Virus record (IMG/VR): IMGVR_UViG_3300046167_000589
Span: 1-22,713 of that record
Reading direction: 5' to 3' (one strand)
Source: a virus
Length of the DNA stretch: 22,713 nt
Each line of letters starts with the position of its first letter. Position 1 is the stretch's first letter. This document shows positions 2 through 22,119 of the stretch, in pieces. The position numbers were made by a program, and so were the translations under genes. A model generated the notes under the pieces. It was not told the origin of the DNA and searched no databases. It was given only the letters and a program-made list of their open reading frames with translations.

Positions 2-1903
2 GAGGAATACATGAGGCTGTATCGCAACCAGTGGTCTAAGCAAGATCAGGAGCGACAGAGCGAGCGGTCTAAGTTGATTGCTCCAGCGCTAGCGCAGGCT
101 GTTGAGTCCAACGTAGCAGAGATAGAAGAAGCTACCTTCGGACGCGGTAAGGTCTTTGACATCAAGGACGACGTACAGGGCCAAGACCCCACACAGGTGG
201 CTTACCTACGGGAGAAGCTACACGAGGACTTCGCAGTAACACGCCTGCGGTCTTCTATCGCTGAGGTTCTGGTCAATGCGGCTGTGTACGGCACAGGCAT
301 CGGTGAGGTCGTGATCGACGAGATCAAGGTGTACAAGCCAGCGACTAAGCCCATGATGGATGGGATGATGAATGAGATAGGCGTGGAGGAGACTTACCGC
401 CCTGTCGTTAAGCTCAACCCTGTACAGCCTAAGAACTTCTTGATTGACCCAGCAGCACCTAACGTAGACGAAGCCATAGGCTGTGCGGTAGATGAGTATG
501 TTAGTCGTCACATTGTAGAAGAACTACAAGAACAAGGAGTCTACAAGGACGAGGAGTTCGTAGGTGACGCAGCAGCGGACTCAGAGATAGAGTTCGACTC
601 AGAGATAGACTCACGTCCTAAGGATCGTATTCGTCTTACTAAGTACTACGGTAAGGTGCCACGAGAGCTTCTGATAGAAGAAGGCGCAGACGAAGAGGAC
701 ATGGAACCCGGCCACTACGTTGAGGCTGTTGTTGTGATAGGCAACGAGGGCGTCCTACTGAAGGCTATTGCTAACCCCTATATGTGTCAGGATCGTCCTG
801 TTGTGGCTTTCCAGTGGGACATCGTACCGTCAGTCTTCTGGGGACGTGGGGTCTGCGAGAAGGGCTACATGAGCCAGAAGGCTCTAGATGCTGAGCTACG
901 CGCTCGTATCGACGCACTAGCACTCACGACACACCCCATGATGGCAGTGGACGCTACACGCATCCCACGGGGCCACAAGCTAGAGGTACGGCCCGGTCGT
1001 ATGCTACTGACTAACGGTGATCCTAAGCAAGCGATCATGCCGTTTAACTTCGGTCAGCTCAACGCTATTACATTCCAGCAGGGTGCTGCGCTACAGCAGA
1101 TGGTAGCTCAGGCTACGGGATCTTCTGATAGCTCGACACCACAGGTACAGAACGACGTAACGGCAGCAGGCATGTCGATGGGTCAGGGCGCTGTCATCAA
1201 GCGACAGAAACGTACGCTAGTGAACTTCCAAGAGAACTTCTTGATTCCCTACGTGAAGAAGTCAGCGTACCGATACATGCAGTTCGACCCTGAGAACTAC
1301 CCTGTGCAGGACTACAGCTTCCAAGTCTTTAGCTCACTAGGGGCTATGGCTAGGGAATACGAAGTAGGACAACTCTCTCAGATGCTACAGATGATCCCAC
1401 CGGAGTCACCCGCTCACGGCGCTATCATCAAGGGTATTGTAGATCACTTGAATGTGACTAACCGAGATGAGATCATGCAGGCTATAGATCAGGCTAACCA
1501 GCCTAATCCTGAGGCAGAGCAACAGGCACAGCAACAGCAGCAGGAGCAGCATCAGGCTCAGATGGCGATACAGCAGGGTCAGGTGGCATTGCTACAGGGT
1601 CAGGCTGCTGAGTCTAAGAGCAGGGCTGAGAAGTACTCTGTAGAGACTCAACTGATGCCGGACGAGCTAGCGCTTAAGTACGCTGAAGACGAGGACTCCA
1701 AGGCGTTCGAGCGTAAGGCACGTATGGGTGATCTACTTCTTAGAGAGCAAGAGCTACAGCTCAAGCAGGACACAGAGGTAGAGCGAGCTAAATCCAAGGC
1801 TGAGACAGAGATGGTTCAGCAACTAGTCAGAGGAGCACCAGATGGATCTACTGCAAATACAGGCCCTTCTGGTCGGCCTCCAGCAACAAATAACGGAGCT
1901 TAG
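2..1903 (+). CDS. Portal protein (5'-partial)
   Basis: Dodecameric portal at the capsid vertex through which DNA is packaged and ejected. The N-terminal part has the look of podoviral portals: an ERSKLIAPAL stretch followed by AEIEEATFGRGK, then a VNAAVYGTGIGEV helix region and NPVQPKNFLIDP. The last ~130 residues (from about base 1500) are Gln/Glu/Lys-rich and strongly helical, as expected of a portal barrel or crown extension. The first Met is at base 11, but the frame is already open from base 2 (Glu-Glu-Tyr before it), and EEYMRLYRN reads like the interior of a portal rather than its start. The gene therefore probably begins upstream of the window; TGAGGA could alternatively serve as a ribosome site for the Met at 11. 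The 3' end overlaps the collagen-like gene by 62 nt. Family call is confident; subfamily is not resolved. Confidence 0.88.
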   Translation, partial: EEYMRLYRNQWSKQDQERQSERSKLIAPALAQAVESNVAEIEEATFGRGKVFDIKDDVQGQDPTQVAYLREKLHEDFAVTRLRSSIAEVLVNAAVYGTGIGEVVIDEIKVYKPATKPMMDGMMNEIGVEETYRPVVKLNPVQPKNFLIDPAAPNVDEAIGCAVDEYVSRHIVEELQEQGVYKDEEFVGDAAADSEIEFDSEIDSRPKDRIRLTKYYGKVPRELLIEEGADEEDMEPGHYVEAVVVIGNEGVLLKAIANPYMCQDRPVVAFQWDIVPSVFWGRGVCEKGYMSQKALDAELRARIDALALTTHPMMAVDATRIPRGHKLEVRPGRMLLTNGDPKQAIMPFNFGQLNAITFQQGAALQQMVAQATGSSDSSTPQVQNDVTAAGMSMGQGAVIKRQKRTLVNFQENFLIPYVKKSAYRYMQFDPENYPVQDYSFQVFSSLGAMAREYEVGQLSQMLQMIPPESPAHGAIIKGIVDHLNVTNRDEIMQAIDQANQPNPEAEQQAQQQQQEQHQAQMAIQQGQVALLQGQAAESKSRAEKYSVETQLMPDELALKYAEDEDSKAFERKARMGDLLLREQELQLKQDTEVERAKSKAETEMVQQLVRGAPDGSTANTGPSGRPPATNNGA

Positions 1904-2165
1904 AAACGGAGGCGTTCAGGGCGAAGTTGGCGATAAAGGCGATAAAGGCGAGACTGGAGACACAGGCCCTCCCGGTAAAACGGGACAACAAGGGCCTGAG
2001 GGAGAACCGGGGACTAAATGGTTCACGGGTAACGGCGTACCGTCTGAGGACATAGGCATTCTTTATGACTACTACTTAGATGGTACTGATGGGTGGATAT
2101 ACCTAAAGCGGCCTAACGGCTGGATGAACACCGGGGATAACCTGAAAGGGCCTCCGGGTAACTAA
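1842..2165 (+). CDS. Collagen-like virion fibre protein
   Basis: A 107-aa protein with a helical, probably trimerising N-terminus (residues 1-24, QIQALLVGLQQQITEL), ten uninterrupted Gly-X-Y triplets from Gly27 to about Gly57 (for example GDKGDKGETGDTGPPG), and a C-terminal knob of about 50 residues with the pattern GVPSEDIG...YYLDGTDGWIY. Phage collagen-like proteins usually form short trimeric fibres on the virion. The start at 1842 lies inside the portal gene in another frame and is preceded by AGAGGAGC at good spacing, so independent translation is likely. The position between portal and scaffold suggests a head or neck decoration, but that is inference. It has no long family-specific domain beyond the triple-helix repeat. 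Confidence 0.82.
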   Translation: MDLLQIQALLVGLQQQITELRNGGVQGEVGDKGDKGETGDTGPPGKTGQQGPEGEPGTKWFTGNGVPSEDIGILYDYYLDGTDGWIYLKRPNGWMNTGDNLKGPPGN

Positions 2166-2779: not shown

Positions 2780-2841
2780 CCACAGCCAAGTGACCCTTGT
2801 TTATTTAATCTGATAAGCCTTAATAGGCCCGGAGTTTGATA

Positions 2842-3648
2842 ATGGCAACACTGATAGATACCGATGGTGAAATTATTGGAGAGACAACCACATTCGACGA
2901 CTTAGAGGAACAGGTAGCTCCTGTTGAGGAAGCCCCTGAGGCTTCTGAATCCCCTGAGCAACCCGAGAGTGACCTCCCTGATAAGTACCAAGGTAAGTCC
3001 GCTGCGGACATAGCACGAATGCACCAAGAGTTAGAGAAGCGTCTAGGACAGCAGTCCTCTGAGGTAGGCGAACTACGCCAAGCCTTTGACCAGATGGTTC
3101 AATCTAGTGTAAAAGCGCAGCAGGCCCCACCGGAAGTTGAAGAGGTAAGTGATACTGACTTCTTTGCCGATCCGAAAGCTGCCGTAGCACAGGCGATTGA
3201 GAACCACCCTAAGCTACGACAGGCAGAAGCTGTAGCCGTAGAGATGGCTAAGAACCAAGCTCTAGCTAAGCTACAGACTACGCACCCCGACATGAAGACG
3301 ATACTAACTTCTACCGATTTCCAATCATGGGTAGGCAAAAGCCAGTTCCGTCAGGGTCTATACCAACAAGCAGACAGCAACTACGATTACGCAGCTGCCG
3401 ACGAACTACTAACACTGTTCAAGGAAGCTAAAGGAATTGTGGCTGAAGCTGCTAAGATTGAGAAGGTCGCACAGAAGAGTGCGGTTAAGCAAGCCTCAAC
3501 AGGAACGTCACGGTCTGCACCCGAAGGCAAGAGCCGGAAGGTCTACAGACGACGTGACATTATCGAACTAATGAATACCGATCCCAAACGGTACGACGCT
3601 ATGTCTGAGGAGATTATGAAAGCGTATCGGGAAGGGAGGGTTAAATAA
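2842..3648 (+). CDS. Capsid scaffolding protein
   Basis: A 268-aa protein directly upstream of the major capsid gene. It is acidic at the N-terminus (many Glu/Pro), has a central coiled coil (residues about 55-80, ELEKRLGQQSSEVGELRQAF), an FFADPKAAVAQAIENHP segment common in podoviral scaffolds, and a strongly basic helical C-terminus (SRKVYRRRDIIELM...KAYREGRVK), the end that binds coat protein in known scaffolds. The start is ATG 2842 behind CCGGAG; an in-frame TTG at 2836 is less likely. Scaffold proteins template procapsid assembly and leave before maturation. The call comes from position and composition rather than a sequence motif, and is strong because both agree. Confidence 0.85.
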   Translation: MATLIDTDGEIIGETTTFDDLEEQVAPVEEAPEASESPEQPESDLPDKYQGKSAADIARMHQELEKRLGQQSSEVGELRQAFDQMVQSSVKAQQAPPEVEEVSDTDFFADPKAAVAQAIENHPKLRQAEAVAVEMAKNQALAKLQTTHPDMKTILTSTDFQSWVGKSQFRQGLYQQADSNYDYAAADELLTLFKEAKGIVAEAAKIEKVAQKSAVKQASTGTSRSAPEGKSRKVYRRRDIIELMNTDPKRYDAMSEEIMKAYREGRVK

Positions 3649-3657
3649 GGGAATACT

Positions 3658-4530
3658 ATGCCATTAGGTACTAATAACGTAACAAACACGACTGCTGCAA
3701 CTTTCATTCCAGAGTTGTGGTCAGATGAAATCATCGCTGTCTATGAGAAGTCACTCGTGGTTAAGCCTCTTGTCCGCGCCATGTCTATGGTTGGCAAGAA
3801 GGGCGACACCATCCACATCCCTAAGCCGGATCGTGGTAGTGCTTCTGTTAAGGCTGAGTCTACTCAGGTTAATCTAATCGCTGGCACCACTGGCGAGTTG
3901 GTCATCAGCATTGACCAGCACTACGAGTACTCACGTCTTATCGAAGACATCACAGACGTACAGGCTCTGAACAGCCTCCGTAAGTTCTACACCGAAGACG
4001 CAGGCTATGCTCTTGCTACTCGTGTAGATACAGCTATTGTTGCTGAGGGCGCTAACTTTACCTCACAGCTGGAGTTCACCGCTGACGGTGTACAGACTGC
4101 TGCTGGTACTGCTGCTTCTGCATTCAATGACGCTGGCTTCCGGGCTGCTATTCAGGTGCTCGACGACAACAACGTACCCATGAACAACCGTGTATGGGTA
4201 ATCTCTCCTGCTATGAAGAAAGAGTTACTTGGTGTTTCTAACTACATCAGCACTGACTTCGTAACTGGTAAGCCTGTTGAGTCCGGTTCTATCGGTAGCC
4301 TCTACGGTATCGACATCCACGTAAGCACTAACCTGCCTACTGAGAACACTGACGAGAAGGGTTCACTGTTGTTCCACAAAGATGCTATTGTCTTTGCAGA
4401 GCAGCTGGGTGTCCGAGTCCAGACTCAATACAAGCAAGAGTGGTTGGCTGACTTGATGACAGCTGATACCTTATACGGTACTCACATCTATCGCCCAGAA
4501 GCAGGCGTTAAGTTGTTCGGTACGGTCTAA
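3658..4530 (+). CDS. Major capsid protein
   Basis: A 290-aa coat protein of presumed HK97 fold. It begins TAATFIPELWSDEIIAVYEKSLVV, has GKKGDTIHIPKP, a central AGYALATRVDTAIVAEG helix, VWVISPAMKKELL, and a C-terminal strand region LYGTHIYRPEAGVKLFG, all typical of small podoviral major capsid proteins. AAGGG precedes the ATG. Arg codons are exclusively CGN (9 of 9), in line with high expression and in contrast to the ejection genes further on. The gene is followed within 8 nt by a strong hairpin terminator, the same arrangement as T7 gene 10, which would help boost capsid mRNA over distal genes. Confidence 0.93.
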   Translation: MPLGTNNVTNTTAATFIPELWSDEIIAVYEKSLVVKPLVRAMSMVGKKGDTIHIPKPDRGSASVKAESTQVNLIAGTTGELVISIDQHYEYSRLIEDITDVQALNSLRKFYTEDAGYALATRVDTAIVAEGANFTSQLEFTADGVQTAAGTAASAFNDAGFRAAIQVLDDNNVPMNNRVWVISPAMKKELLGVSNYISTDFVTGKPVESGSIGSLYGIDIHVSTNLPTENTDEKGSLLFHKDAIVFAEQLGVRVQTQYKQEWLADLMTADTLYGTHIYRPEAGVKLFGTV

Positions 4531-4559: not shown

Positions 4560-4610
4560 ATGTAAGTCCATTGCCCAACAGTGGGCTTCCACAAGAACAC
4601 GGAGATTCTT

Positions 4611-7049
4611 ATGTCCATTACGTATACACCGACGACTAACTTTGGATCAAAAGATAGTCTTCCATCGAACGACCCGAATAAAGTAATTAAGGGCGCTGAG
4701 TTCACTACTGAGTTCACCGCCATCCAGAGCGCCTTCGGATTGGCTGCTCCTTCTTCTAATCCTACTTTCACAGGTACAGCTACGTTTGATAGCGTGACTG
4801 CTAACGCTGTGTCGCTAGGAGATGTAACAACCAGTAACCTCACAGTATCTGGTGCCTTCACCAGCTTAGGCATCGACGACAACGCTACGTCCACGGCTAT
4901 CACGATCGATTCCAGTGAGAACGTGGGCATTGGTACGGACTCTCCTGACGGTACGCTGCATGTTAAAGATACGATAGCCCAGCTCTACGTACAGTCGAAC
5001 GATGGTCAACCATCACAAGTGGTATTTGGGGACGTTACAGACGCCAGTGGTGGAATGATCGAATACACATCTACCGACGCTATGGCATTTAAGACTAACA
5101 ACCTTAACGAGCGTATGCGTATCGACGCCTCAGGAAACGTGGGCATTGGTACCGCAACTCCTGTTAGCACTAATAACTACGGCGGCCTCACGCTAAACGG
5201 TGCTTCTGGCGGGGCGCTATCATTCACTGACGATGACGTACTTGTGGGTAACTTACTATCGTCTGGGAGTGATATGTATTTCGGGACAGGTGGAGACACT
5301 GTGTTCCGTAACGGCGGCTATACAGGCTCTGACGAAGCCATGCGTATTGACTCCTCAGGGAACGTGGGCATCAACACAACGAATCCTAGCATATACGGCG
5401 GCCTCGTAATCGCACAGGATGCAAACACGAGTAGTGATGGTTTTGCGGTAGTAGACTCTACATTGGCTCAATCGGCTAAACTCTGGTGTGATGGGACTAA
5501 CTCCTACTTGTCATCAGGTAACACTGGTAATGATCCGCTCATCCTTAATACTGGCGGTGGAAACGTGGGCATTGGTAACACGAATCCCTCACGTACCTTA
5601 GACATAGGTGATGGCACAAGCTCAGCCCACGTGGGGATCAGAGCTTCTTCTAGTCCTAACATACTATTCACTAGCGGTGGAGCTAATGTAGGGTACATAG
5701 GTACAACTCTGTGGAACACAGGCGCAGGCAGCGATACGGAGCTATCTGTTCGCTCAGAGAATGACCTGACGTTCACCTCTGGTTCTACCGAGCGCATGCG
5801 TATCGACTCCTCAGGAAACGTGGGTATTGGCACGTCTGATCCACAGCAGGCACTGCATGTTGCTGGTGGTGGCTTGCAGATAGAGGGTAACATAAGCGCA
5901 CCCGCCGCTGGTACAGAATCCGCCCTCATTGACTACTTCAACAACAACATGAGATTTTGGTCGCGGGGTACGTCGTCGACACGAGGTACGTTCGAGTTTG
6001 TACAGGTCGAGAATGACGGGCAGAACCAGCAGTCTCCCATGGTCATCGACGCCTCAGGGCAAGTAGGTATCGGCATGACCGCACCATCCGACAGGAATCT
6101 ATCTCTTTACGGTGCAACAAACTGTATCCTGTCAATGCATAACTCTACCTCTGGGACTACAGCGGCTAGTGGCGTACAGCTGCAAGGGGTAGGTAATAAC
6201 GGCTATATGGTGAACTACAATACTGGCGGTGCCTTAGCGTTCTTTACGGCGGAGACTGGAAACAACACGCAAGAGCGTATGCGCCTCGACGCCTCAGGAC
6301 ATCTAGGGATTAAAACTACTCCAAGCCCGTGGCGTACTACGGACGGAGTTATAGAGCTTGGACAACGCTCAAGCCTAGCAGGTCTGTCAATCGATACACA
6401 TCTCTCAACTAATGCCTACTTCTCACAGGCAAGTGGTTGGAAGGCTATAGATACAGCGGCGGCGACTAACTACTATCAAAACGATGGTAGTCATGTATGG
6501 AGAAGAGCTGCAACAACCACAGCAGGCGCGTCCGTTCCTTGGGTGGAGTCCATGCGTATCGACAGCTCAGGAAACTTGCTGGTTGGTACTGATGTTGGCA
6601 CAGGCCCAAGGCTTCGTGTAGAGCGTGGCGGTATTGTTGCGGAGTTCAATAGGTCTAGTGGCACTTCGGCTCTTATTAGCTTCCAGTATGGAGGCGTCGA
6701 TGCTGGATATATCACGTCTAGCGCAGGCGGGACACCTTCCTTTACAGCAGCGTCGGACGAACGCCTCAAGGACAACATTGTTGATCACGAATCAGAACTA
6801 GCTAACGTCATGTCTCTACGTCCTACACGCTGGGACTGGAAAGAGGACGCTAAGGGTTCTGGTGAGGGCTTCATTGCTCAAGAGCTGGAAGCTACAGCTT
6901 GGGCTGATCTGGTGTCTGAAGGTGATGACGGGTTCAAGCAGGTGTCTGGTTTAGGTGCTGTCGAGACTCGTCTTATCAAGGCTATGCAGGAGCAGCAAGC
7001 AATGATTGAAGCTCTGAAGGCCAAAGTGGAGGCGCTAGAGAATGCCTAA
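4611..7049 (+). CDS. Tail fibre/spike with S74 intramolecular chaperone
   Basis: An 812-aa receptor-binding fibre. The N-terminus (SITYTPTTNFGSKDSLPSND) is a short virion-attachment segment. The body holds about eight copies of a repeat with consensus MRIDSSGNVGIGT, spaced irregularly, as in trimeric beta-helical tail fibres. From residue 715 comes an S74 chaperone of endosialidase: SDERLKDN, then LRPTRWDWK, GFIAQELEA and a coiled-coil end (MQEQQAMIEALKAKVEALE). In this family the chaperone trimerises the fibre and cleaves itself off just before the Ser of SDxRLK, so mature fibre should end at about residue 714. The start is ATG 4611 behind CGGAG; the upstream in-frame GTG at 4581 has no ribosome site. 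Receptor unknown. Confidence 0.9.
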   Translation: MSITYTPTTNFGSKDSLPSNDPNKVIKGAEFTTEFTAIQSAFGLAAPSSNPTFTGTATFDSVTANAVSLGDVTTSNLTVSGAFTSLGIDDNATSTAITIDSSENVGIGTDSPDGTLHVKDTIAQLYVQSNDGQPSQVVFGDVTDASGGMIEYTSTDAMAFKTNNLNERMRIDASGNVGIGTATPVSTNNYGGLTLNGASGGALSFTDDDVLVGNLLSSGSDMYFGTGGDTVFRNGGYTGSDEAMRIDSSGNVGINTTNPSIYGGLVIAQDANTSSDGFAVVDSTLAQSAKLWCDGTNSYLSSGNTGNDPLILNTGGGNVGIGNTNPSRTLDIGDGTSSAHVGIRASSSPNILFTSGGANVGYIGTTLWNTGAGSDTELSVRSENDLTFTSGSTERMRIDSSGNVGIGTSDPQQALHVAGGGLQIEGNISAPAAGTESALIDYFNNNMRFWSRGTSSTRGTFEFVQVENDGQNQQSPMVIDASGQVGIGMTAPSDRNLSLYGATNCILSMHNSTSGTTAASGVQLQGVGNNGYMVNYNTGGALAFFTAETGNNTQERMRLDASGHLGIKTTPSPWRTTDGVIELGQRSSLAGLSIDTHLSTNAYFSQASGWKAIDTAAATNYYQNDGSHVWRRAATTTAGASVPWVESMRIDSSGNLLVGTDVGTGPRLRVERGGIVAEFNRSSGTSALISFQYGGVDAGYITSSAGGTPSFTAASDERLKDNIVDHESELANVMSLRPTRWDWKEDAKGSGEGFIAQELEATAWADLVSEGDDGFKQVSGLGAVETRLIKAMQEQQAMIEALKAKVEALENA

Positions 7050-7374: not shown

Positions 7375-8524
7375 TAATAAAGACTGGATGCTCGCACAGG
7401 AGAAGGCCGGCAAGGCTACGGCTACGCAGAAGGCATGGCTATCTAAGTGGAGGGCAGCAGGATCGCCTAGCACTCAGGCGGGTATGTCTAAGTCTAAGTC
7501 CTCTGCTTCGCAGACTAAGACGGCAGCAGATAAGAAGGCAGCTCAGATGGCAGCTGCTAAGAAAGCAGCGGCGGAGAAGCAGGCAGCTGAAATCAAAAGG
7601 CAGCAGGAGCAGGCCCAGCGGCTTGCAGCTAAGGCAGCTGCTGATGCTAAGGCCGCCGCAGCTAGTCTCACAGGAAAGAACTCTTTAGTCGGAGGCGATG
7701 GTCTTACTAACGAAGAACGCTATGCTAAGCGTAGGGCAGAAGAACAAGCTAAGGCAGCTGCGGCAGCGTATCGTCTAGAAACAGACGAACGCGGCAACGC
7801 TAACGCCTTTGGAACAGAGTGGGATGTCAACAGCAACAGAGACAACCCTTACGGAGTAACCAGCATCAAGGACTCCAGTGGTCTAGGCTTTAGTGGTAAT
7901 CCCGAGCACTTCATTACAACAGGCAATCCTGCTGACATGAAGGGTATTGAGGTTGGCTACAACACCGACAAGAAAGCTAAGCCACCTATGCCTCCTGCCG
8001 AAACTACGAAGGGTCAACCTTCAGGCGGCGGTATCGGTGCTTTCTTTAATGGCATACGCAACGGATCTGCTACTAACATCAAGGGCAATGCCCCAGCTGG
8101 AGGCACAGACGCAGCTGTTACAGTAGACCAGACAGGCGGTAACCCGCTGGGGATGTTCAACGGATTAATGGGTGTTGTAAGCAACGTACGAGATCCGAAC
8201 ACAACTGATCCTATTAAGTTCACTCAGGAAGAGATAGACGCAGAGCTAGCTAAGCGAGAGTACGAGCGACAGAACGCCGAGGCTCTTGCTCAGGCGGAGC
8301 TGTTTAACCCTACGCAAGAGGCAGGGCCTGTTCGTAATCGTAACTTCCAGACGGTAAACTACGGCACTCAGGGAGGGCCTACGGCTGGTGTGAACACAGG
8401 CATTGGGGTAGCAGGACAGTCACAGGCTACGCCTTGGGCTGATGCGTACATGAGAGCACAGCAGTCGTCTGCTAGACAAGGGCCTATCAGTGGGCTATTC
8501 AGCAAGGAAATGGAGAACTCCTAA
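7361..8524 (+). CDS. Putative structural protein, Ala/Lys-rich, 387 aa
   Basis: A 387-aa protein starting at an ATG with a very strong AAGGAGG site. The N-terminal 130 residues are Ala/Lys/Gln-rich with long helical stretches (KKAAQMAAAKKAAAEKQAAE, AAKAAADAKAAAAS), probably a coiled coil or nucleic-acid-like basic rod. The remainder is Gly/Asn-rich and loosely structured (QPSGGGIGAFFNGI, TGGNPLGMFNGLMGVVSN) with a second charged helix around IDAELAKREYERQ. There are no catalytic motifs. Coupled by an overlapping stop and start (TAATG) to the 597-aa gene downstream. Its place between tail fibre and tail tube genes suggests a minor tail or fibre-linker protein; function unknown. Confidence 0.75.
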   Translation: MSWSSNKDWMLAQEKAGKATATQKAWLSKWRAAGSPSTQAGMSKSKSSASQTKTAADKKAAQMAAAKKAAAEKQAAEIKRQQEQAQRLAAKAAADAKAAAASLTGKNSLVGGDGLTNEERYAKRRAEEQAKAAAAAYRLETDERGNANAFGTEWDVNSNRDNPYGVTSIKDSSGLGFSGNPEHFITTGNPADMKGIEVGYNTDKKAKPPMPPAETTKGQPSGGGIGAFFNGIRNGSATNIKGNAPAGGTDAAVTVDQTGGNPLGMFNGLMGVVSNVRDPNTTDPIKFTQEEIDAELAKREYERQNAEALAQAELFNPTQEAGPVRNRNFQTVNYGTQGGPTAGVNTGIGVAGQSQATPWADAYMRAQQSSARQGPISGLFSKEMENS

Positions 8525-10317
8525 TGGAAGAGACAGGGCTTGAGAACGAACTATTAGCAACTAACGAAGCCCTTCCTTCTGAGGAGGAGCGTACTTATAC
8601 TATGATTCTCCACGACGAGAAAGGAGACAATGCTGTAAGCCTCTATGGAAACACTGGACAGGATCAGCAAGACTTGAGCTGGGAGCCTACACAGGTAACT
8701 GAGGCTGAGCTGTCTGAAATCTTTAGCGGGAGTGACAACCTCCAGAACACCTTCGGTGACTTCGACACCTACATGGCGTACATCGAAGAGTCCTCAGAGA
8801 TGATCGAGGCTCAGGACTGGTTCTCTGCTGAAGGCATAGACAACCGTGGCACTGGGGAGATCATAGGCGAAGGGGAAGACTTCGGCGGTGTTGACGTACG
8901 CAACGATGACGACAACCGACAGTCAGACGGCATGGCTCGACAGGGGGCGTATGCCTCTTGGATGAACAGCGAAGAGAACCAAGCCCTGATGCAGAAGTAC
9001 GGCATTCCTACTGAAGAGTTCACCAACGAGAAAGGTGATAGGTTCAGATGGACAGGCACGGGATTTGCTAGAGTCTACAAGATGAACAGGACAGACTTCG
9101 GAGACTACGTTCTAGCTGCTGGTGCTGCTGCTCTAATGGCCGCTGCTCCTGCTCTTGCTGCCCAGCTGGTAGCTACTACAGGGATGTCAGCGATTACGGC
9201 AGGTGCTTTGTCCTCGTCTATTCTCAGCCTGACAAGCCAAGCAGCTACAACAGGGGATGTAGACATCAACCAAGTAGTTAATGACGCCATTCGAGGAGCC
9301 TCTGGTGGCGTGTTTGGAGACTTCGGGGAAGGAGGTGTAACTTCAATAGGAGATATAGGAAAGGCTGTAGCAGACGCCATTAACGACGTCAGCAACGGGG
9401 CGTTTGAACAAACGTACGGAGACGTTGTGTGGGAGGAGACTACGCCTTCTGAGACTTCTGAAGGTGAGTACGACGAGGACGGTAATGTTGTAGTTGATCC
9501 TAACACTGTTCAGATTGATGGCCCTAACTATCCAGTTACTAATACCAACAACGGAGGCGGCGGCGGAGGCGGAGACAGTTCTTCTAATCCTAATCCTACT
9601 GACTCTACAACGGACAACTCTACTAATGGCAGCGATAATCAGTACGAGGTTATTGACAACATAGCCGACGGTACGTGGATGGTTAGAGACAACATAGATG
9701 GAGACGTATGGATTATCCGGGGAGACTACAGCATAGGAGACTTTGTACCTGAGTCGAGCATGGCAGACGCCGTAGGAGCGGGTGGTGATCTAAATAATGT
9801 AGATACAAATACAAACACAACCGATAACACAACCGATAACACTAACGAAACCGATACTGAAGATCCTTCAGACAGAGTTAATCAGGTTATTGATATACTC
9901 GGGAACACTATAAATTCTATCCCTAATACGGTAGATCCTAATGAGTCAGTTGACCCTAATGACGCAGTTGATCCCAACGAGTCAGTTGATCCTAACAACG
10001 GCGTTGACCCTAATGACGCAGTTGATCCTAACGATGGCGATGGCGACGGGGATGGTGACGGCAATGGGAACGGAACCGGGACTGGGACTGGAAACGGCAA
10101 TGGAGACGGCAACGGCGACGGTGATGGTGACGGGGATGGTGATGGAGACGGCGACGGTAATGGCGACGGAAGCGGAGGGGGTCTTCTCGCAGGCGGCGGT
10201 AACTTCACGCCTAAGTGGGGAGAGCTGTTCAAGTACACCGACATAACGCCAGCTCAGGCTAAGAAGATGGCTCCTATGTACGAATACATCAAGCAAACTA
10301 AAGGGATGCTTTCATGA
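8524..10317 (+). CDS. Putative virion protein with VDPN and DG repeats, 597 aa
   Basis: A 597-aa protein, very acidic. Residues 1-180 look globular (GYGD-free, with [20 protein letters not shown]). Residues about 197-245 are hydrophobic ([20 protein letters not shown]) and could insert in a membrane. Then follow a Gly/Ser/Asn/Thr linker, a small domain ([17 protein letters not shown]), six tandem VDPNxx repeats (about 470-505) and a DG/NG/TG repeat (about 504-553) resembling Ca2+-binding DxDxDG runs. It ends with [20 protein letters not shown] and a helix [16 protein letters not shown], a tail pattern seen in other marine phage virion proteins. It overlaps its neighbours by 1 and 4 nt. The role is unknown; a flexible fibre or ejected membrane-active protein are both possible. 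Confidence 0.78.
9931..10038 (+). repeat. Six tandem 18-bp repeats (VDPNxx)
   Basis: Six in-frame 18-bp units, each encoding V-D-P-N plus two residues (ES, DA, ES, NG, DA, DG). Copies differ mainly at third codon positions, so selection or recent expansion acts on the protein level. They lie inside the 597-aa gene. Confidence 0.9.
10033..10190 (+). repeat. Low-complexity Asp/Asn/Thr-Gly repeat
   Basis: About 50 codons alternating GGN with GAY, AAY or ACN. The pattern gives DG, then NG/TG, then DG blocks ending in SGGG. Alternating Asp-Gly is reminiscent of DxDxDG calcium loops but no complete RTX nonapeptide (GGxGxDxUx) is seen. The DNA is a near-hexanucleotide repeat that could slip in replication. 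Confidence 0.88.
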
Positions 10318-10958: not shown

Positions 10959-12646
10959 TGGCACAACAACAGCAGAACATTTCGATCTCTGCTCCGGGCT
11001 TCCAAGGTCTAAACACCGAGGACTCGCCGTTGCAGCAAGACCCCGGATTCGCCTTGGAAGCCGACAATTGTGTTATTGATAGATTCGGTAGGATCGGCGC
11101 TAGAGAGGCATTCGATAACTACACCAACAACGACAACATATCGTACTCCACTAACCCTGCTATGGTCACTGAGACTAAGCAGGTGTATCAGCTAGGCGGT
11201 GGAGTCATCGGCACGACACGCCATGACCTAGGCATACTAGGGCATCTACAGTACAGCGGTGCTGGTTCTCTTGTTCAGGAGGACTACTACATTGTACGGT
11301 TCGATGCAGAGGACATGGATGCAATCTCTTACCCTACGGTGGCTATTCCGGCTAACCTAGTAAGGGCAGACATCGTGTACTTCAACGATGCAATCTACAT
11401 ATTCAGTAAAGGTAACATCGCACTTAAGTACACAGGCACCATAGTTAATCTATTCTCAGGAACAATAGACGTAGACTACATACCGCCTAGAGACGACAGC
11501 GGTATCATTGCTAACAACATCGACGGAGACGTAGGTTGCTCAGCGTACGGTAGGCTGTGGGTATCGGGAGTCAACAACGACTACGATACTATATATTATT
11601 CTGATCTTCTTATTGCTACACAGTGGTACGACGGAAGAGCCACACCAGCGGATACCCAGAACACAGGCGGTATTATTGACGTGTCTCAGTACTGGCCTAA
11701 CGGCGGTGACCGAATCGTGTCGATACAGGCACACAACAACTTCCTAATCATCTTTGGAAGACAGTCGATTCTGCTGTACTCGTCAGTCAATAACTTTGCT
11801 GACCCTGCAGATATGGGTGGTCTAATACTACAGGATGCTATCAGCAGCATGGGCGCTGTAGCTAGAGACGCAGTAACTAACATAGGATCTGATCTTCTCT
11901 TTGTAGACGACTCAGGCGTGCGTTCGCTAGGAAGAACAATACAAGAGAAGTCAGTACCTATTGGAGACCTAACGGCTAACGTCAAGCGAGACATCTCTAG
12001 CCTTATACGAGACGAGCCTAATGATGCTGTGTCTTTGTTCTACATGCCTGACAAGAACTTAGTAGTATGTAACTTCGGTGACACAGAGCAAGCGTACGCT
12101 ATCGAGATGAGAGCACCCTCAGCTACAGGAGGCCAGAAGATAACTCGGTGGACTGACTGTAAGTTCAGGCGTGGTCTTTACGTCGAGCAAGAGGATGACG
12201 TATACACACTGCTGGCAGGCAAGGACACAGGCGGTGCGCTTTGGTACAACAACTACCTAGAGTGGAACAGTCAGCCCTATCAGATGAAGTACGGTTCTAA
12301 TGCGTTTACCTTCGGAGACGCAGTACGACAGAAGTTCTTGAAGAAGATAGACTTCACCTTAGTAAGTACCTTTGCTGACGCTGATGCTGTTGTTAAGTGG
12401 GGATACGGTGGTTTCCTGACTGACACAGCAACTAAGGTTGTTAGTGCTCAGCAGCCTGCGCTCTATAACGTGTCTGAGTTCAATGAATCAGAATACGGGC
12501 CGGGACTAACTACGCTAAGGCGGTACAAGACAAACACTAACGGTAGCGGTGACCTAGTAAGGGTTGGGCTAGAAGCGGATATAGCAGGTAACTCACTGTC
12601 TATACAAGAGATTAATGTTCAGACCCTTCTGGGGAGGATTTACTGA
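10958..12646 (+). CDS. Tail tubular protein B / nozzle (T7 gp12, P22 gp10-like)
   Basis: A 562-aa protein with the typical opening ISAPGFQGLNTEDSP followed by DPGFALEADNCVIDRFGRIGAREAF, a signature of nozzle or stabilisation proteins in marine podoviruses. The middle is beta-rich with repeated blades (DIVYFNDAIYIFSKGN, GRLWVSGVNNDYDTIYYSDL, NNFLIIFGRQSILLY), consistent with a beta-propeller. It would form the hexameric tail nozzle that plugs the DNA channel. The start is ATG 10958 (TAATG junction with the preceding stop); the longer open frame from TTG 10943 is unlikely. The stop overlaps the following start as TGATG. Confidence 0.87.
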   Translation: MAQQQQNISISAPGFQGLNTEDSPLQQDPGFALEADNCVIDRFGRIGAREAFDNYTNNDNISYSTNPAMVTETKQVYQLGGGVIGTTRHDLGILGHLQYSGAGSLVQEDYYIVRFDAEDMDAISYPTVAIPANLVRADIVYFNDAIYIFSKGNIALKYTGTIVNLFSGTIDVDYIPPRDDSGIIANNIDGDVGCSAYGRLWVSGVNNDYDTIYYSDLLIATQWYDGRATPADTQNTGGIIDVSQYWPNGGDRIVSIQAHNNFLIIFGRQSILLYSSVNNFADPADMGGLILQDAISSMGAVARDAVTNIGSDLLFVDDSGVRSLGRTIQEKSVPIGDLTANVKRDISSLIRDEPNDAVSLFYMPDKNLVVCNFGDTEQAYAIEMRAPSATGGQKITRWTDCKFRRGLYVEQEDDVYTLLAGKDTGGALWYNNYLEWNSQPYQMKYGSNAFTFGDAVRQKFLKKIDFTLVSTFADADAVVKWGYGGFLTDTATKVVSAQQPALYNVSEFNESEYGPGLTTLRRYKTNTNGSGDLVRVGLEADIAGNSLSIQEINVQTLLGRIY

Positions 12647-14403
12647 TGGGTTTATTAAGTGTAGTAGGTGGTATTGGTTCTGCTGCGGCGGGTCTCAATA
12701 CAGCTGACGATATACAGGGTCTAGGTGCTAGTGCCAATCAACAGATGGCAGACCTAGCAACGCAGGTAAAGGGCGATACTGCCTTCACTGGATATGGAGT
12801 ACAGACAGGACTAGGAAGCAGCACTGTTGACGCACAGGGAAACACTAACCTAGGCGTAGGGCCTAACGCTGCTATGCAGGGCATGTCCGGAAGCATGATG
12901 GGCAATGCTCAGTCAGGCTTCGGTAATGCTGCCGCAATGGCAGGAGCTGCTAGCGGTAACCCAGCGTACGGGCAGGCCATGGGTGGTATGGCTACAGCTC
13001 AGGGCATGGCTATGAACAACCAAGGCAATCCTGCTTATCAGCAAGCCATGGGGATGTACGGCCAGAACGCTAACAATTCAATGATGGGCGCGGCTACGGG
13101 AATGATCGGTCAAGGAGCGCAGAACGCTGCTTATGGGCAGGCGATGGGTGGTCTTAATCAGTCCAATCAGATGGCTATGCAGAACAGTCAGAACGCTCAG
13201 ATGGGCGGGGCTATGAACCAGCTCGGGCAAGCTAACGCACTCACTGGGGCTAACGCACAGAACGCAGCCTACGGACAGGCCATGGGCGCACAGAACGCAG
13301 GTATGCAGGGACTCGCAGGCCAGCAGGCAGGGGCATTAGGAGCCTCACAGCAGGCCATGCAGAACGCTATGGGCGACAGGGCAGGACGTGAGCAGTCAGT
13401 GTACGACAGAGCTATGTCTATGCAGCAGCCGGGTCTAGACGCCGCCAGAGCCTCTCAGCAGGCCCGTGAGTTCGCTCAGGGTCGAGGAGGTGTTAGGGGT
13501 AGTCAGTTCGGTGGAACCGCTGAGGATGCCGCTACGGCCCGCGCACAGGCACAGGCACAGAACCAAGCAGCCTTTCAGGCGATGGGTCAGGCCGAGGCAG
13601 AGATGCAGGGACAGGCAGCTATGGCTAGCCAGTTCGGTCAGATGGGTCAGGCAGCAGCTGGACTACAAGGACAACTCGGCAGCAACATGGGCCAGCTCGG
13701 AGCACAGAATGCACAGCTCGGGCAGGCAGCTGGGTCACAGTTGGCACAGAACGCTGGACTCCAGAGCAGCATGGGCGCTCAGAACGCACAGCTCGGGCAG
13801 GCAGCTGCGGGTATGCTGGGACAGAACGCTCAGGCAGCGGGTTCGCTAGGCGCTCAGAATGCTCAGTTGTCTCAAGCAGCAGGACAGGCACTAGGAAGCT
13901 TAGGTGCTCAGAACGCACAACTAGGACAAGGCGCGGCAGCAGGCATGGGCCAGCTAGGCGGACAGCAATCACAACTGGGTCAGTCAGCAGCCGGTATCTA
14001 CGGCAACATGGCGAACCAGATGGGTCAGCTCGGAAGTCAGCAGGCACAGCTAGGCCAAGCAGGCGCTGGTCTGATGAGTCAGATAGCAAACCAACAAGGC
14101 AACATGGGACTGAATGCTTATCAGCAGTCGTTCCTGCCAATGCAGCAGCAGATGCAGATGATGCAACTGGGCGGACAGAACGCAGATCGCTTCCAGTCTG
14201 GTCAATTCACAGGTGCAAACTTAGGTGCTCAGCTCGGCCTCGGTGGTATACAGGCACAGGTGAACGCAGCCAAGACAGCCGCAGAGCTAGAAGGCAACAT
14301 CTACACTGGCGCTATGGACGCAGCAGCGGGAATGACCGGGGGTGCTTTGGGTAACATAAACACAAGCAATCCTACGGTTGATAAATTCCTCTCATGGTTA
14401 TAA
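12646..14403 (+). CDS. Putative internal virion protein, Gln/Ala/Gly-rich repeats, 585 aa
   Basis: A 585-aa protein dominated by Gln, Ala, Gly, Met and Asn. The N-terminus (LLSVVGGIGSAAAGL) is hydrophobic. Residues about 105-220 carry copies of NxAYGQAMG. Residues about 350-475 carry six or so copies of LGAQNAQLGQAAG. A charged segment (REQSVYDRAMSMQQPGLDAARASQQAREFAQGRGG begins near 250) separates the two. The C-terminus (QSFLPMQQQMQMMQLGGQN...AAKTAAELEGNIY) is helical. By position this is the first of three genes after the nozzle, where T7 has ejection proteins gp14-16. Long Gln/Ala helices suit a protein stored in the capsid and ejected to line a channel, but no direct homology is claimed. 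Confidence 0.78.
   Translation: MGLLSVVGGIGSAAAGLNTADDIQGLGASANQQMADLATQVKGDTAFTGYGVQTGLGSSTVDAQGNTNLGVGPNAAMQGMSGSMMGNAQSGFGNAAAMAGAASGNPAYGQAMGGMATAQGMAMNNQGNPAYQQAMGMYGQNANNSMMGAATGMIGQGAQNAAYGQAMGGLNQSNQMAMQNSQNAQMGGAMNQLGQANALTGANAQNAAYGQAMGAQNAGMQGLAGQQAGALGASQQAMQNAMGDRAGREQSVYDRAMSMQQPGLDAARASQQAREFAQGRGGVRGSQFGGTAEDAATARAQAQAQNQAAFQAMGQAEAEMQGQAAMASQFGQMGQAAAGLQGQLGSNMGQLGAQNAQLGQAAGSQLAQNAGLQSSMGAQNAQLGQAAAGMLGQNAQAAGSLGAQNAQLSQAAGQALGSLGAQNAQLGQGAAAGMGQLGGQQSQLGQSAAGIYGNMANQMGQLGSQQAQLGQAGAGLMSQIANQQGNMGLNAYQQSFLPMQQQMQMMQLGGQNADRFQSGQFTGANLGAQLGLGGIQAQVNAAKTAAELEGNIYTGAMDAAAGMTGGALGNINTSNPTVDKFLSWL
13690..14070 (+). repeat. Degenerate repeats (GAQNAQLGQAA) in 585-aa gene
   Basis: At least six imperfect DNA copies of a unit spelling Gly-Ala-Gln-Asn-Ala-Gln-Leu-Gly-Gln-Ala-Ala, often sharing CAGAACGCACAGCTCGGGCA, with variable spacers. 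Third-position changes show that the protein pattern is kept while the DNA drifts. Confidence 0.85.
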
Positions 14404-19784: not shown

Positions 19785-19935
19785 TTAGATCCTCCTTGAT
19801 CTTCTCTAGTATAGCCAGAAGCATGTTCCTTTCTATTAGGATTCCGCGCATGTAGCTATGGCAAGCCATGATGTAGAAGCCAGCAGCGATCAAGCCGCCA
19901 GCCCCTACACCTAATGCCCATGTTGATACAATCAT
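19774..19935 (-). CDS. Small membrane protein, 53 aa
   Basis: A 53-aa protein whose ATG overlaps the stop of the ribonucleotide reductase gene (ATGA) and has GGGAG upstream. Residues 5-25 form a Gly/Ala-rich transmembrane helix (WALGVGAGGLIAAGFYIMA), followed by a charged amphipathic helix (LLAILEKIKEDLSED) that would face the cytoplasm if the N-terminus is outside. It overlaps the next gene by 11 nt. It is a typical phage membrane microprotein; function unknown. Confidence 0.65.
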   Translation of the reverse strand: MIVSTWALGVGAGGLIAAGFYIMACHSYMRGILIERNMLLAILEKIKEDLSED

Positions 19936-21827
19936 TCTGCACTCCCTACGATTTCACAGACGCCGCCAGTACAGGCAAGCTCTTGACTACTTGTTGTTGT
20001 ATCCTCTAGCTCATAACTAGGGAACAGCGACCAGTCTACCTCAGGGAACTCCTCAACAGCCAGCTCGTAAGCAAGGCTATCTATCTGCTGATACGGTGCC
20101 TGTTGGTACGTACCGTTATCGTATGGCAGCATACTAACACCACTCATAATATCCCAGTTGTCCCATACCCACTGCATCATGCCGAGGTAGTTGTCATCCG
20201 TGTAGTACACAGTGATGCTAGGCTTATGCTCACACCACGCCTCTTGGTATATCTTCCATAGTCGGAGTTGCTCCAGCGCATCCTGCTCGTCCCTCGTCAC
20301 CGCTGTATCTGGTGTCTTGATAGGGAAGCTGAAGATGGTGGTGGTGTCCGGCTTCATGACACACGGCTCATTAGGTACGCCTTGGTCACGCATGAAAGCA
20401 GTCATTGGATCTTTGTTATCCTGTCGCACTGTCCGTGTGTAGAACCTAGAGTAGGCTGGGTGAATGCCTGAGCTGCACAAGGCTAGCTGGCTCACCGTAC
20501 CACTTGGCTTGACACACGTTATAGCTACAGACACAGGGATCTTCAGCTGCTTGGCCCACTTCTTGTTCACCGTGATGGCATGCTCCCGCATGGTGGTTAG
20601 CCATTCGGTTAGCTTCTCGTCACCTTCGCTTCCGTTCAGGACAGGGTGATCCATGATGCCTGTTAGGCTCACACCCAGCAGCCGTTCTTCCTCACAGTTG
20701 TTCTGCCATACCTTACGCAAGTAGCGGAAGTCCGTCAGTGTAGACTGCAACGTACCAAAGATAGTAGCAGCGTCCACCTTATGCAGCAGGTCTTCAAGCC
20801 TGTCGTCAGCCCGGACTATAACCTCAGAGAGATTACAGAACTCAGACGGTCGAAGGATGATCTCGGAACAGGGGTTACAGCCCCACTTGTGTCCAGTCTC
20901 TCTGCGACCGTGTGACTCAATGATCTTATCCGCAGCTTCACGGTTGAAGAAGCCTCGCTCACCGCTGTAGCTCTCGTACAGGGCTTTGGACTGGTTCATG
21001 TAGAAGTGGAAGTCAGGCTTCTTCTCGTAGCAGGCTGAGTTATTAGCCAACGCACGTTGCCCGTCTGTGTTCCACCAAGCACCAGACTTAGCCGTAGCCA
21101 TGCGATCAGACGTTGGTGAGCTTAAGGAGATCAATGCACTGCGTCGAACCCCACCGACCACCACAATGGCAGCGACTTTACAGATGAGATCGTGTGCCTC
21201 TAGGTCTGTCAGCTTACGGCCAGCAGCCTTGCGGAACAGAGCCACTGTGAAGTTGAACAGATCCACCAGCGGAGCAGGGCCTGACGCTCGACCACCGAAG
21301 GTCTTGAGCTTAGCACCAGCAGGGCGTACCTTACTCACATCCCACGATGGTACTTCACCAGTCCACAGCATAGCGAGCAGCTGCTTGAATGCCTTAGCCC
21401 ACCCCACCTTGGAGTCAGCCACTACAATCACTGAGTCTGTATCATGGAACTCTTCAGCTACGATGGGTAGCTTAGCAACCTCGTCACGCTCACAGCTAAA
21501 GCCTACGCCTGTCCCACAAAGTAGGATGTACATGCACTCATCGAAGGCCCGAGGGTGGTCGATGCTGAGGTAGGCACAGTTGTATCCAGCTACGTGGTCA
21601 CGATCCAGCGCAGGGCCAGCAGTCATGAGAGCACGCATACTAGGTACTACGTCTAAGTCTACGATCATCTTACGTAGGGTGTTGGCTTGCATGTTCGTAA
21701 GCAAACCCTTGTCTTTCCAGTAGTTAGTGTAACGAGAGCATGTCTCGTCCCATGTCTCACGTCGGCCAGCGTACTCAATCCATCTGGCGTAGCGGGACAT
21801 GGCTATAAAGTTCTGGTAATCATTCAT
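19932..21827 (-). CDS. nrdJ: Adenosylcobalamin-dependent (class II) ribonucleotide reductase
   Basis: A 631-aa monomeric-type reductase that makes deoxyribonucleotides from ribonucleotides (NTPs in the Lactobacillus leichmannii type) using vitamin B12 coenzyme. Visible active-site features: Cys84 (CAYLS; equals Cys119 of L. leichmannii), CGTGVGF at 104-110, NPCSE at 318-322 with the thiyl-radical Cys320 and Glu322, and Cys331 eleven residues on, the redox partner. A C-terminal pair Cys619/Cys624 (CTGGVC) would relay electrons from thioredoxin-type donors. It is about 100 residues shorter than the L. leichmannii enzyme. The start is ATG 21827 behind AAGGA; the frame is open to 21989 but upstream codes for another small gene. 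It needs cobalamin from the host, and is common in marine phages. Confidence 0.95.
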   Translation of the reverse strand: MNDYQNFIAMSRYARWIEYAGRRETWDETCSRYTNYWKDKGLLTNMQANTLRKMIVDLDVVPSMRALMTAGPALDRDHVAGYNCAYLSIDHPRAFDECMYILLCGTGVGFSCERDEVAKLPIVAEEFHDTDSVIVVADSKVGWAKAFKQLLAMLWTGEVPSWDVSKVRPAGAKLKTFGGRASGPAPLVDLFNFTVALFRKAAGRKLTDLEAHDLICKVAAIVVVGGVRRSALISLSSPTSDRMATAKSGAWWNTDGQRALANNSACYEKKPDFHFYMNQSKALYESYSGERGFFNREAADKIIESHGRRETGHKWGCNPCSEIILRPSEFCNLSEVIVRADDRLEDLLHKVDAATIFGTLQSTLTDFRYLRKVWQNNCEEERLLGVSLTGIMDHPVLNGSEGDEKLTEWLTTMREHAITVNKKWAKQLKIPVSVAITCVKPSGTVSQLALCSSGIHPAYSRFYTRTVRQDNKDPMTAFMRDQGVPNEPCVMKPDTTTIFSFPIKTPDTAVTRDEQDALEQLRLWKIYQEAWCEHKPSITVYYTDDNYLGMMQWVWDNWDIMSGVSMLPYDNGTYQQAPYQQIDSLAYELAVEEFPEVDWSLFPSYELEDTTTSSQELACTGGVCEIVGSAE

Positions 21828-21910
21828 GAAAGATCCTTGTAGATTGCAATACAAAAGAGGACTAGCAAACCAGCTAGCCCAGCGAATAGTCCAAAGAGAA
21901 AGCAGCTCAT
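21824..21910 (-). CDS. Membrane microprotein, 28 aa
   Basis: A 28-aa peptide (begins MSCFLFGLFAGLAG, ends IAIYKDLS) that is essentially one transmembrane helix with small-residue GLFAGLAG packing motifs and a short cytoplasmic tail. The ATG has AAGGA upstream and overlaps the stop of the 70-aa gene (ATGA); the stop overlaps the reductase start (ATGA). Such perfect chaining makes chance unlikely, though its only role could be translational coupling into the reductase gene. Confidence 0.6.
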   Translation of the reverse strand: MSCFLFGLFAGLAGLLVLFCIAIYKDLS

Positions 21911-22119
21911 AGTATCTTCCTTGCAAACACACGGTCAGCCAGATGACTATTGTAGCAATGCTCTTGCTGGAAGAAGAAGAGAATATCAATAACGCATACA
22001 GCCCACATCCTGTTCTCCCTCCAGCACCTGCCGCTTAGTGTCTCATTAGGATCACCGATGAACACAGCCGCGTTAAGCAGCTGCGACAGGGCGGTAGCGA
22101 TGTTGATTAGATACTTCAT
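21907..22119 (-). CDS. Conserved phage protein of unknown function, 70 aa
   Basis: A 70-aa protein with the pattern LLNAAVFIGDPNETLSGRCWRE, then VIDILFFFQQEHC near the middle. Short phage and prophage proteins with a GxPxETLSGRxxR...LFF...HC layout are widespread (recollection), with no assigned role. Its hydrophobic stretches are short, so a peripheral membrane protein is plausible. AAGGAG lies eight bases before the ATG. Its start overlaps the stop of the 21-aa gene (TGATG) and its stop overlaps the 28-aa gene (ATGA). Confidence 0.8.
   Translation of the reverse strand: MKYLINIATALSQLLNAAVFIGDPNETLSGRCWRENRMWAVCVIDILFFFQQEHCYNSHLADRVFARKIL

Follow-up and report, generated by a model that had tools for sequence, protein, structure and literature searches.

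A small collagen-like fibre gene that begins inside the portal gene of an uncultured podovirus, and its recurrence at the same site in relatives

Collagen-like fibres are already known from phages, as is a collagen-like head protein in SPP1. This protein, gp12, is described as 64 aa long, as forming collagen-like trimers that sit at the hexon centres in 180 copies, and as non-essential (PMC6316719, PMC6813328); its function has been called elusive (PMC5292684), and a review gives its role as host adhesion (PMC7602432). The same review describes phi29 gp8.5 as a trimeric head fibre thought to help attachment (PMC7602432), and phage 7-7-1 is reported to have head fibres that bind a host surface structure (PMC12796354). 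On the tail side, the EPcl prophage fibres and lambda Stf-type side tail fibres are described as modular proteins with a coiled coil beside a collagen stalk and a C-terminal domain (PMC3368898), and the SU10 adaptor is reported to dock six long fibres (PMC9509320).

The window analysed here, a stretch of 22,713 nt from IMG/VR record IMGVR_UViG_3300046167_000589, carries a head module of podovirus type on its + strand, in which a collagen-like fibre gene of 107 aa (1842-2165, +; ATG 1842 to TAA 2165) lies between the portal gene and a probable scaffold gene. Like SPP1 gp12, for which we rely on description only (PMC6316719, PMC7602432, PMC6813328, PMC5292684), the protein is very small and collagen-like, is encoded in the head block and has a helix predicted beside its collagen part, but it is longer (107 versus 64 aa), and gene 12 of SPP1 lies between the scaffold and capsid genes. 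With the EPcl and lambda Stf-type fibres it has in common the putative coiled coil beside a collagen stalk, the C-terminal domain and the modular build, but it is far smaller and its gene lies elsewhere; the side-tail-fibre domains PfN and Pf2 are not among its Pfam matches, Collagen being the only family matched at E <= 1. The likeness to phi29 gp8.5 is likewise one of description, and gp8.5 is helical, not collagen. The head modules of SU10 and HMO-2011-type podoviruses have their portal and capsid families in common with the window, at a portal identity to the closest phage records of only 23-27%. In HMO-2011 a small annotated gene also begins inside the portal gene and is followed by a gene of 762 aa, and in CRP-345 a gene of 1246 aa follows the portal; the stretches of HMO-2011, CRP-345 and CHOED examined hold no run of 8 or more Gly-X-Y triplets.

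The portal gene (11-1903, +; 630 aa) matches SU10_portal with 77.2 bits, P22_portal with 31.6 bits and a portal PHROG at E 2.2e-45. The fibre gene is followed by a 49-aa ORF with a GTG start (2187-2336, +), an 84-aa ORF matching neither Pfam nor PHROGs (2326-2580, +), a zinc-ribbon-like ORF of 71 aa (2564-2779, +; Zn_ribbon_8 20.6 bits, below the cut-off of 34.4) and the probable scaffold of 270 aa (2836-3648, +), which precedes the capsid gene and matches PHROG 13678, of unknown function, at E 1.1e-15 and the scaffold PHROG 19777 only at E 0.017. The major capsid protein (3658-4530, +) is recognised by family matches, and its matches include MAG contigs labelled as several phyla. Next comes a long fibre gene, distinct from the collagen-like one, whose end is a Peptidase_S74 chaperone (4611-7049, +, from an internal start; the ORF is listed as 4581-7049). 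L001 also contains the 49-aa ORF, at +284..433 counted from the portal stop, and a 51-aa ORF of L009 is similar by eye. Between 1500 and 3700, promoter-like sites (2 versus 1.4 expected) and terminator-like sites (3 versus 1.7 expected) are near chance, and no tRNA was found in the window. Elsewhere in the window we noted a 597-aa ORF with a long GD/GN/GT repeat run and VDPN repeats (8524-10317), a 585-aa ORF with many AQNAQLGQ-like repeats (12646-14403) and, on the strand opposite the structural genes, a 685-aa ORF (19932-21989, -) that presumably resembles ribonucleotide reductase.

The sequence-only reading had claimed a collagen-like gene starting inside the portal gene, and the ORF, its triplets, its ribosome-binding site and its conservation confirm that this gene is real. 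The site AGAGGAG (1829-1835, +) lies 6 nt 5' of the fibre ATG, and the 16 bases 5' of the ATG are identical in 9/9 contigs of the close group. A protein search returned 56 loci, 9 of them the window's own group and 47 matched mainly through the collagen repeats. The ORF is intact in 8 of the 9 close IMG/VR contigs, the ninth (L092) being cut by the contig end. Whole-protein identity in this group is 97-100% in seven contigs, near-copies that are not independent evidence for the gene, and 86% in L091. The protein has 12 consecutive Gly-X-Y triplets; shuffling its residues 20,000 times gave at most 8 in a row, and elsewhere in the six window frames runs reach at most 4 triplets. Pfam Collagen (PF01391) scores 26.9 bits on the protein (hmmscan, E 4.1e-6), just below the cut-off of 27.2, and 28 bits, above it, in the genome search at the gene. 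The whole protein had no tblastn match at 1e-5 among 50,697 phage records.

The fibre gene is under purifying selection. In the one pair that informs this, the window and L091, pN/pS over the 107 codons is 0.22 (17.5 synonymous and 12.5 non-synonymous changes); the first 20 codons give 0.32 (2.5 and 2.5), the stalk codons 0.66 (4 and 8) and the last 48 codons 0.03 (10 and 1). The sole length change between the two is a stalk six residues longer in L091, with the stop at the same place. A tip that is tightly held beside a stalk that drifts is as a spacer would predict.

Three parts can be told apart in the protein. The leucine-rich residues 1-23 (1842-1910, +) would make up a short coiled coil, holding three chains in register and attaching the fibre to the particle. 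The twelve triplets of residues 24-59 (1911-2018, +) would then wind into a collagen triple helix of about 10 nm, and the C-terminal domain of 48 residues (2019-2162, +) is the proposed exposed tip, which would make weak, reversible contact with the host surface. We infer trimerisation, a virion location, adhesion and these roles for the two ends. By shuffling, the window N-terminus is more alike to those of L005 and L019 than expected (0/2000 shuffles) and to that of L008 (p 0.0035); the likeness is weak for L073 (p 0.04), only marginal for L018 (p 0.08) and not significant for L011, L031, L032 and L045 (p 0.12-0.76). Among seven other fibres, 15/21 pairs of N-termini have p < 0.05, uncorrected for multiple tests. 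Leucine-rich helices resemble each other, so such likeness may exist without kinship. A strict pattern for the window tip was matched in 11 collected loci, all of the window's own close group.

The fibre gene overlaps the portal 3' end by 62 nt (1842-1903, +) in the +1 frame relative to portal, covering two bases of portal codon 611, codons 612-630 and the stop; the overlap had been described as the last 20 portal codons, which is correct to within one codon. It is 56 nt in L005, L008, L017 and L019. The portal frame is Gly/Pro-rich here, as had been said, and reads NTGPSGRPPATNNGA. The further idea, that this tail shares the collagen character of the fibre, did not hold up: residues 611-630 are the least conserved part of the portal, they lie past its last predicted helix, and the fibre frame is the constrained one in 3/4 comparisons. 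Among 32 aligned portals, the mean frequency of the top residue is 0.29 for 611-630 versus 0.77 for 1-600, the fall beginning near residue 580. The last helix (563-607) comes from a low-confidence model (mean pLDDT 51.8) that was used for helix limits only. Counted at the first, second and third fibre codon positions, the overlap of the window differs by 7/4/12 changes from L005, 8/6/14 from L017 and 7/4/10 from L019, and 8 to 10 of 18 residues are alike in the fibre frame but 2 to 5 of 18 in the portal frame. L008, compared ungapped though it has one extra residue near its start, shows no skew (10/13/13), with 3 and 4 of 18 alike in the two frames. The third-position skew in 3/4 comparisons thus implies that the fibre frame bears most of the constraint on the overlap. 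In L092 (near 4001-4060) the portal is two codons shorter, yet its fibre agrees with that of the window residue for residue in the 18 codons compared. A portal tail acting as collagen-like partner of the fibre was therefore rejected, the tail being poorly conserved and the L092 portal ending earlier with the fibre unchanged. The C-terminus of P22-type portals is located within the capsid, apart from any outer fibre. Judged from these comparisons, the Gly/Pro-rich portal tail looks passive.

To place the site among relatives, we scanned the best 80 of 599 confirmed portal matches, a sample rather than a census, which with the window gave 81 rows. Dropping L014 (no portal stop), L026 (early portal stop) and six loci with < 300 nt after the portal left 73 scored loci, and a locus counted as having a collagen ORF at the site if >= 10 triplets in a row occurred in the interval from 90 nt 5' to 700 nt 3' of the portal end. 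The early stop in the L026 portal frame, like a frame change in the L091 portal match near 1040-1053, may be an assembly error or real. The site had been called unusual for a collagen fibre; for this lineage it is not, since 25/73 scored loci from the best 80 of 599 matches, window included, have a collagen-like ORF there (absent in 48/73), and the SPP1 head module is described as holding a gene for a collagen-like capsid protein (PMC6316719). Among the 25 is L023, although its portal frame ends unlike the others. With identical portals removed, 62 rows remained for a portal tree, 23 with collagen and 39 without; the tree calls for 6 gains or losses of collagen, of which well-supported branches require 4; with shuffled labels the number is about 19. 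Collagen ORFs at the site are thus clustered on the portal tree yet have been gained or lost repeatedly, at least 4 to 6 times.

Starting inside the portal gene is not peculiar to fibres. In 35/48 collagen-free loci from the best 80 of 599 matches, another small ORF starts 91 to 124 nt before the portal end; such starts are common in these loci and one is present in HMO-2011, so the overlap is best seen as gene packing. The suggestion of co-production with the portal accordingly reduces to adjacency: the fibre gene has its own ribosome-binding site, and those 35 loci start a different small ORF inside the portal. In the collagen-free clade a small coiled-coil gene directly follows the portal. 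In 12 of the 24 non-window collagen loci this gene sits 1.0 to 5.7 kb further on (some matches weak, E up to 0.007), which fits, without proving, insertion of a fibre gene in between; it was not found in the other 12/24 or in the window, and no kinship between it and the 49-aa ORF of the window was detected at E <= 1. Soon after the portal in L063, L066 and L076, where other relatives have fibres, there is a 224-237 aa ORF with a VMYSGGMDS motif, which we take to be QueC- or PAPS-reductase-like.

The fibres at this site vary. Complete fibre ORFs of relatives are 166 to 422 aa long, with one open ORF of 629 aa, and when 15 fibre ORFs are aligned, the stalk follows a short N-terminus rich in leucine. 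Directly behind the stalk, 13/15 have by eye a common segment (GVGVES..ADGDLVFTLTDG or similar) that is missing from the window and L091; beyond this segment several dissimilar groups of ends can be told apart, some short, some with long extra domains or coiled coils. The window fibre is the shortest of the 15 versions and is without the segment common to the others. Of ten proteins from the site scanned with Pfam, eight are above the Collagen cut-off, and two, the L020 ORF and the second one of L008, have no family match at E <= 0.1. In some relatives (L043:8543-8890, L045:5681-6034 and, with a shorter ORF, L073 and L074) the collagen fibre gene is followed by a separate ORF that is like the fibre end domain by eye, which would suit a tip copy maintained on its own.

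Wherever both portal and capsid genes were matched in IMG/VR records (6/6: G000, G002, G003, G004, G008, G010), the portal-adjacent collagen lies between them. A capsid-based scan of genome contigs gave 6 loci, with a portal in 5 and a collagen ORF at the site in one of these 5 (L145:1588-2106; 172 aa, 11-nt portal overlap), on a contig in a MAG labelled Flavobacteriales and with a portal about 47% identical. L147, L148 and L149 have no run of 8 triplets, L150 has a triplet run far downstream, and in L146, for which no portal was matched, such a run follows the capsid gene. In G005 a collagen-bearing ORF of 655 aa lies shortly 3' of the capsid gene, and G002, the record of L022, has more collagen matches on both strands near 37130-37624, about 11 kb beyond the portal site and at the record end, either repeats or a second fibre. 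A collagen stalk therefore does not fix the place of a protein, as the G005 ORF and the further G002 matches illustrate.

Based on these findings, we tentatively propose, as our leading reading, that the gene product is a small accessory fibre of the virion, trimeric and serving adhesion, for which we slightly prefer a place on the capsid surface to one at the neck or tail. The versions that relatives have at this spot are longer and different, so the fibre is probably of a familiar accessory attachment kind and not tied to the portal protein; it would be one member of an exchangeable cassette of anchor, stalk and tip beside the portal in a podovirus lineage. The decoration of head or neck suggested earlier is possible. 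Head attachment of the SPP1 gp12 kind is slightly favoured over neck or tail by analogy, on account of the gp12 precedent, the collagen gene lying between portal and capsid in 6/6 records, and phage phiAC-1, in which a homologue of the L011 tip comes directly after a putative capsid gene. Against a head placement stand the 15 tail families among the 25 PHROGs listed of 51, the tail annotations for the L011 tip and the G005 collagen after the capsid gene.

The same points give weight to a side fibre attached to the neck or tail, whose N-terminus would dock on the adaptor, the portal clip or another fibre and whose tip would bind a host receptor, portal proximity being only historical; we hold this to be possible but doubtful. 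The best PHROG of the fibre protein is a tail-fibre family (E 4e-9) that spans residues 17-98 and so reaches into the tip, and of 51 PHROGs matched at E <= 1, the 25 listed comprise 15 tail, 9 unknown and 1 head-and-packaging. These matches come largely from collagen repeats common to unrelated fibres, however. Among the 25 listed of 51 only two, both of unknown function, reach residues 1-16. The L011 tip matches 13 phage records, 6 of them annotated as tail or tail fibre; for the tips of L045 and L017 no match among phage records was found, which counts against either simple placement, on the head or at the neck or tail. A capsid-cement fold for the L011 tip was set aside, as Phage_cement_2 is weak (16.8 bits against a cut-off of 24) and the model is unusable (mean pLDDT 32.5). 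The window tip has 8 sub-threshold matches, 5 called tail fibre (E 0.3-4, not significant). The best-matching portal family is that of SU10, with its fibre-docking adaptor (PMC9509320), and the G005 ORF would suit a tail-side location. The window already has its long S74 fibre at 4611-7049, though, and the gene is part of the head block in all six records listed earlier.

It is improbable, in our judgement, that a longer fibre gene has been cut down to this one, which would still be translated but have little or no function. The greater length of the relatives' fibre ORFs would suit such an origin, as would the end of the protein, KGPPGN, where it stops shortly after a new G-P-P triplet that could be the start of a lost second collagen block. 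But a remnant would not be expected to keep its last 48 codons at 10 synonymous to 1 non-synonymous change against L091, nor to share the L091 stop with only six stalk residues of length change. A non-virion protein, such as an assembly aid for portal or scaffold, is very improbable: the gene does lie between portal and probable scaffold, but 48/73 scored loci from the best 80 of 599 matches have no collagen ORF at the site (they may have one elsewhere), and the varying protein ends among relatives fit an outward-facing part better.

Returning to the accessory adhesion fibre, we also put forward a broader and rather speculative version, which we consider unlikely as a whole: a lineage of uncultured podoviruses would have a dedicated adhesion-fibre locus beside the portal, with a common N-terminal dock and freely exchanged collagen stalks and tips. 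Its product would sit on the head or at the portal vertex and serve adsorption in addition to the S74 fibre, as a second organ separate from it, and the window phage would have the minimal version. Among the open-licence literature matches listed, judged by title or abstract start, no description of a portal-adjacent collagen fibre was found; as far as these matches show, the recurrent portal-adjacent position in an uncultured lineage and the minimal version of 107 aa are new. As it stands, our analysis revises the idea that the portal tail is collagen-like and shows that the fibre site recurs. Should the cassette prove to be an exchangeable adhesion organ of the head or portal vertex, phages of this lineage would depend on more than their tail fibres for host attachment, and the exchange of tips at a single locus could mark adaptation to host surfaces in metagenomes.
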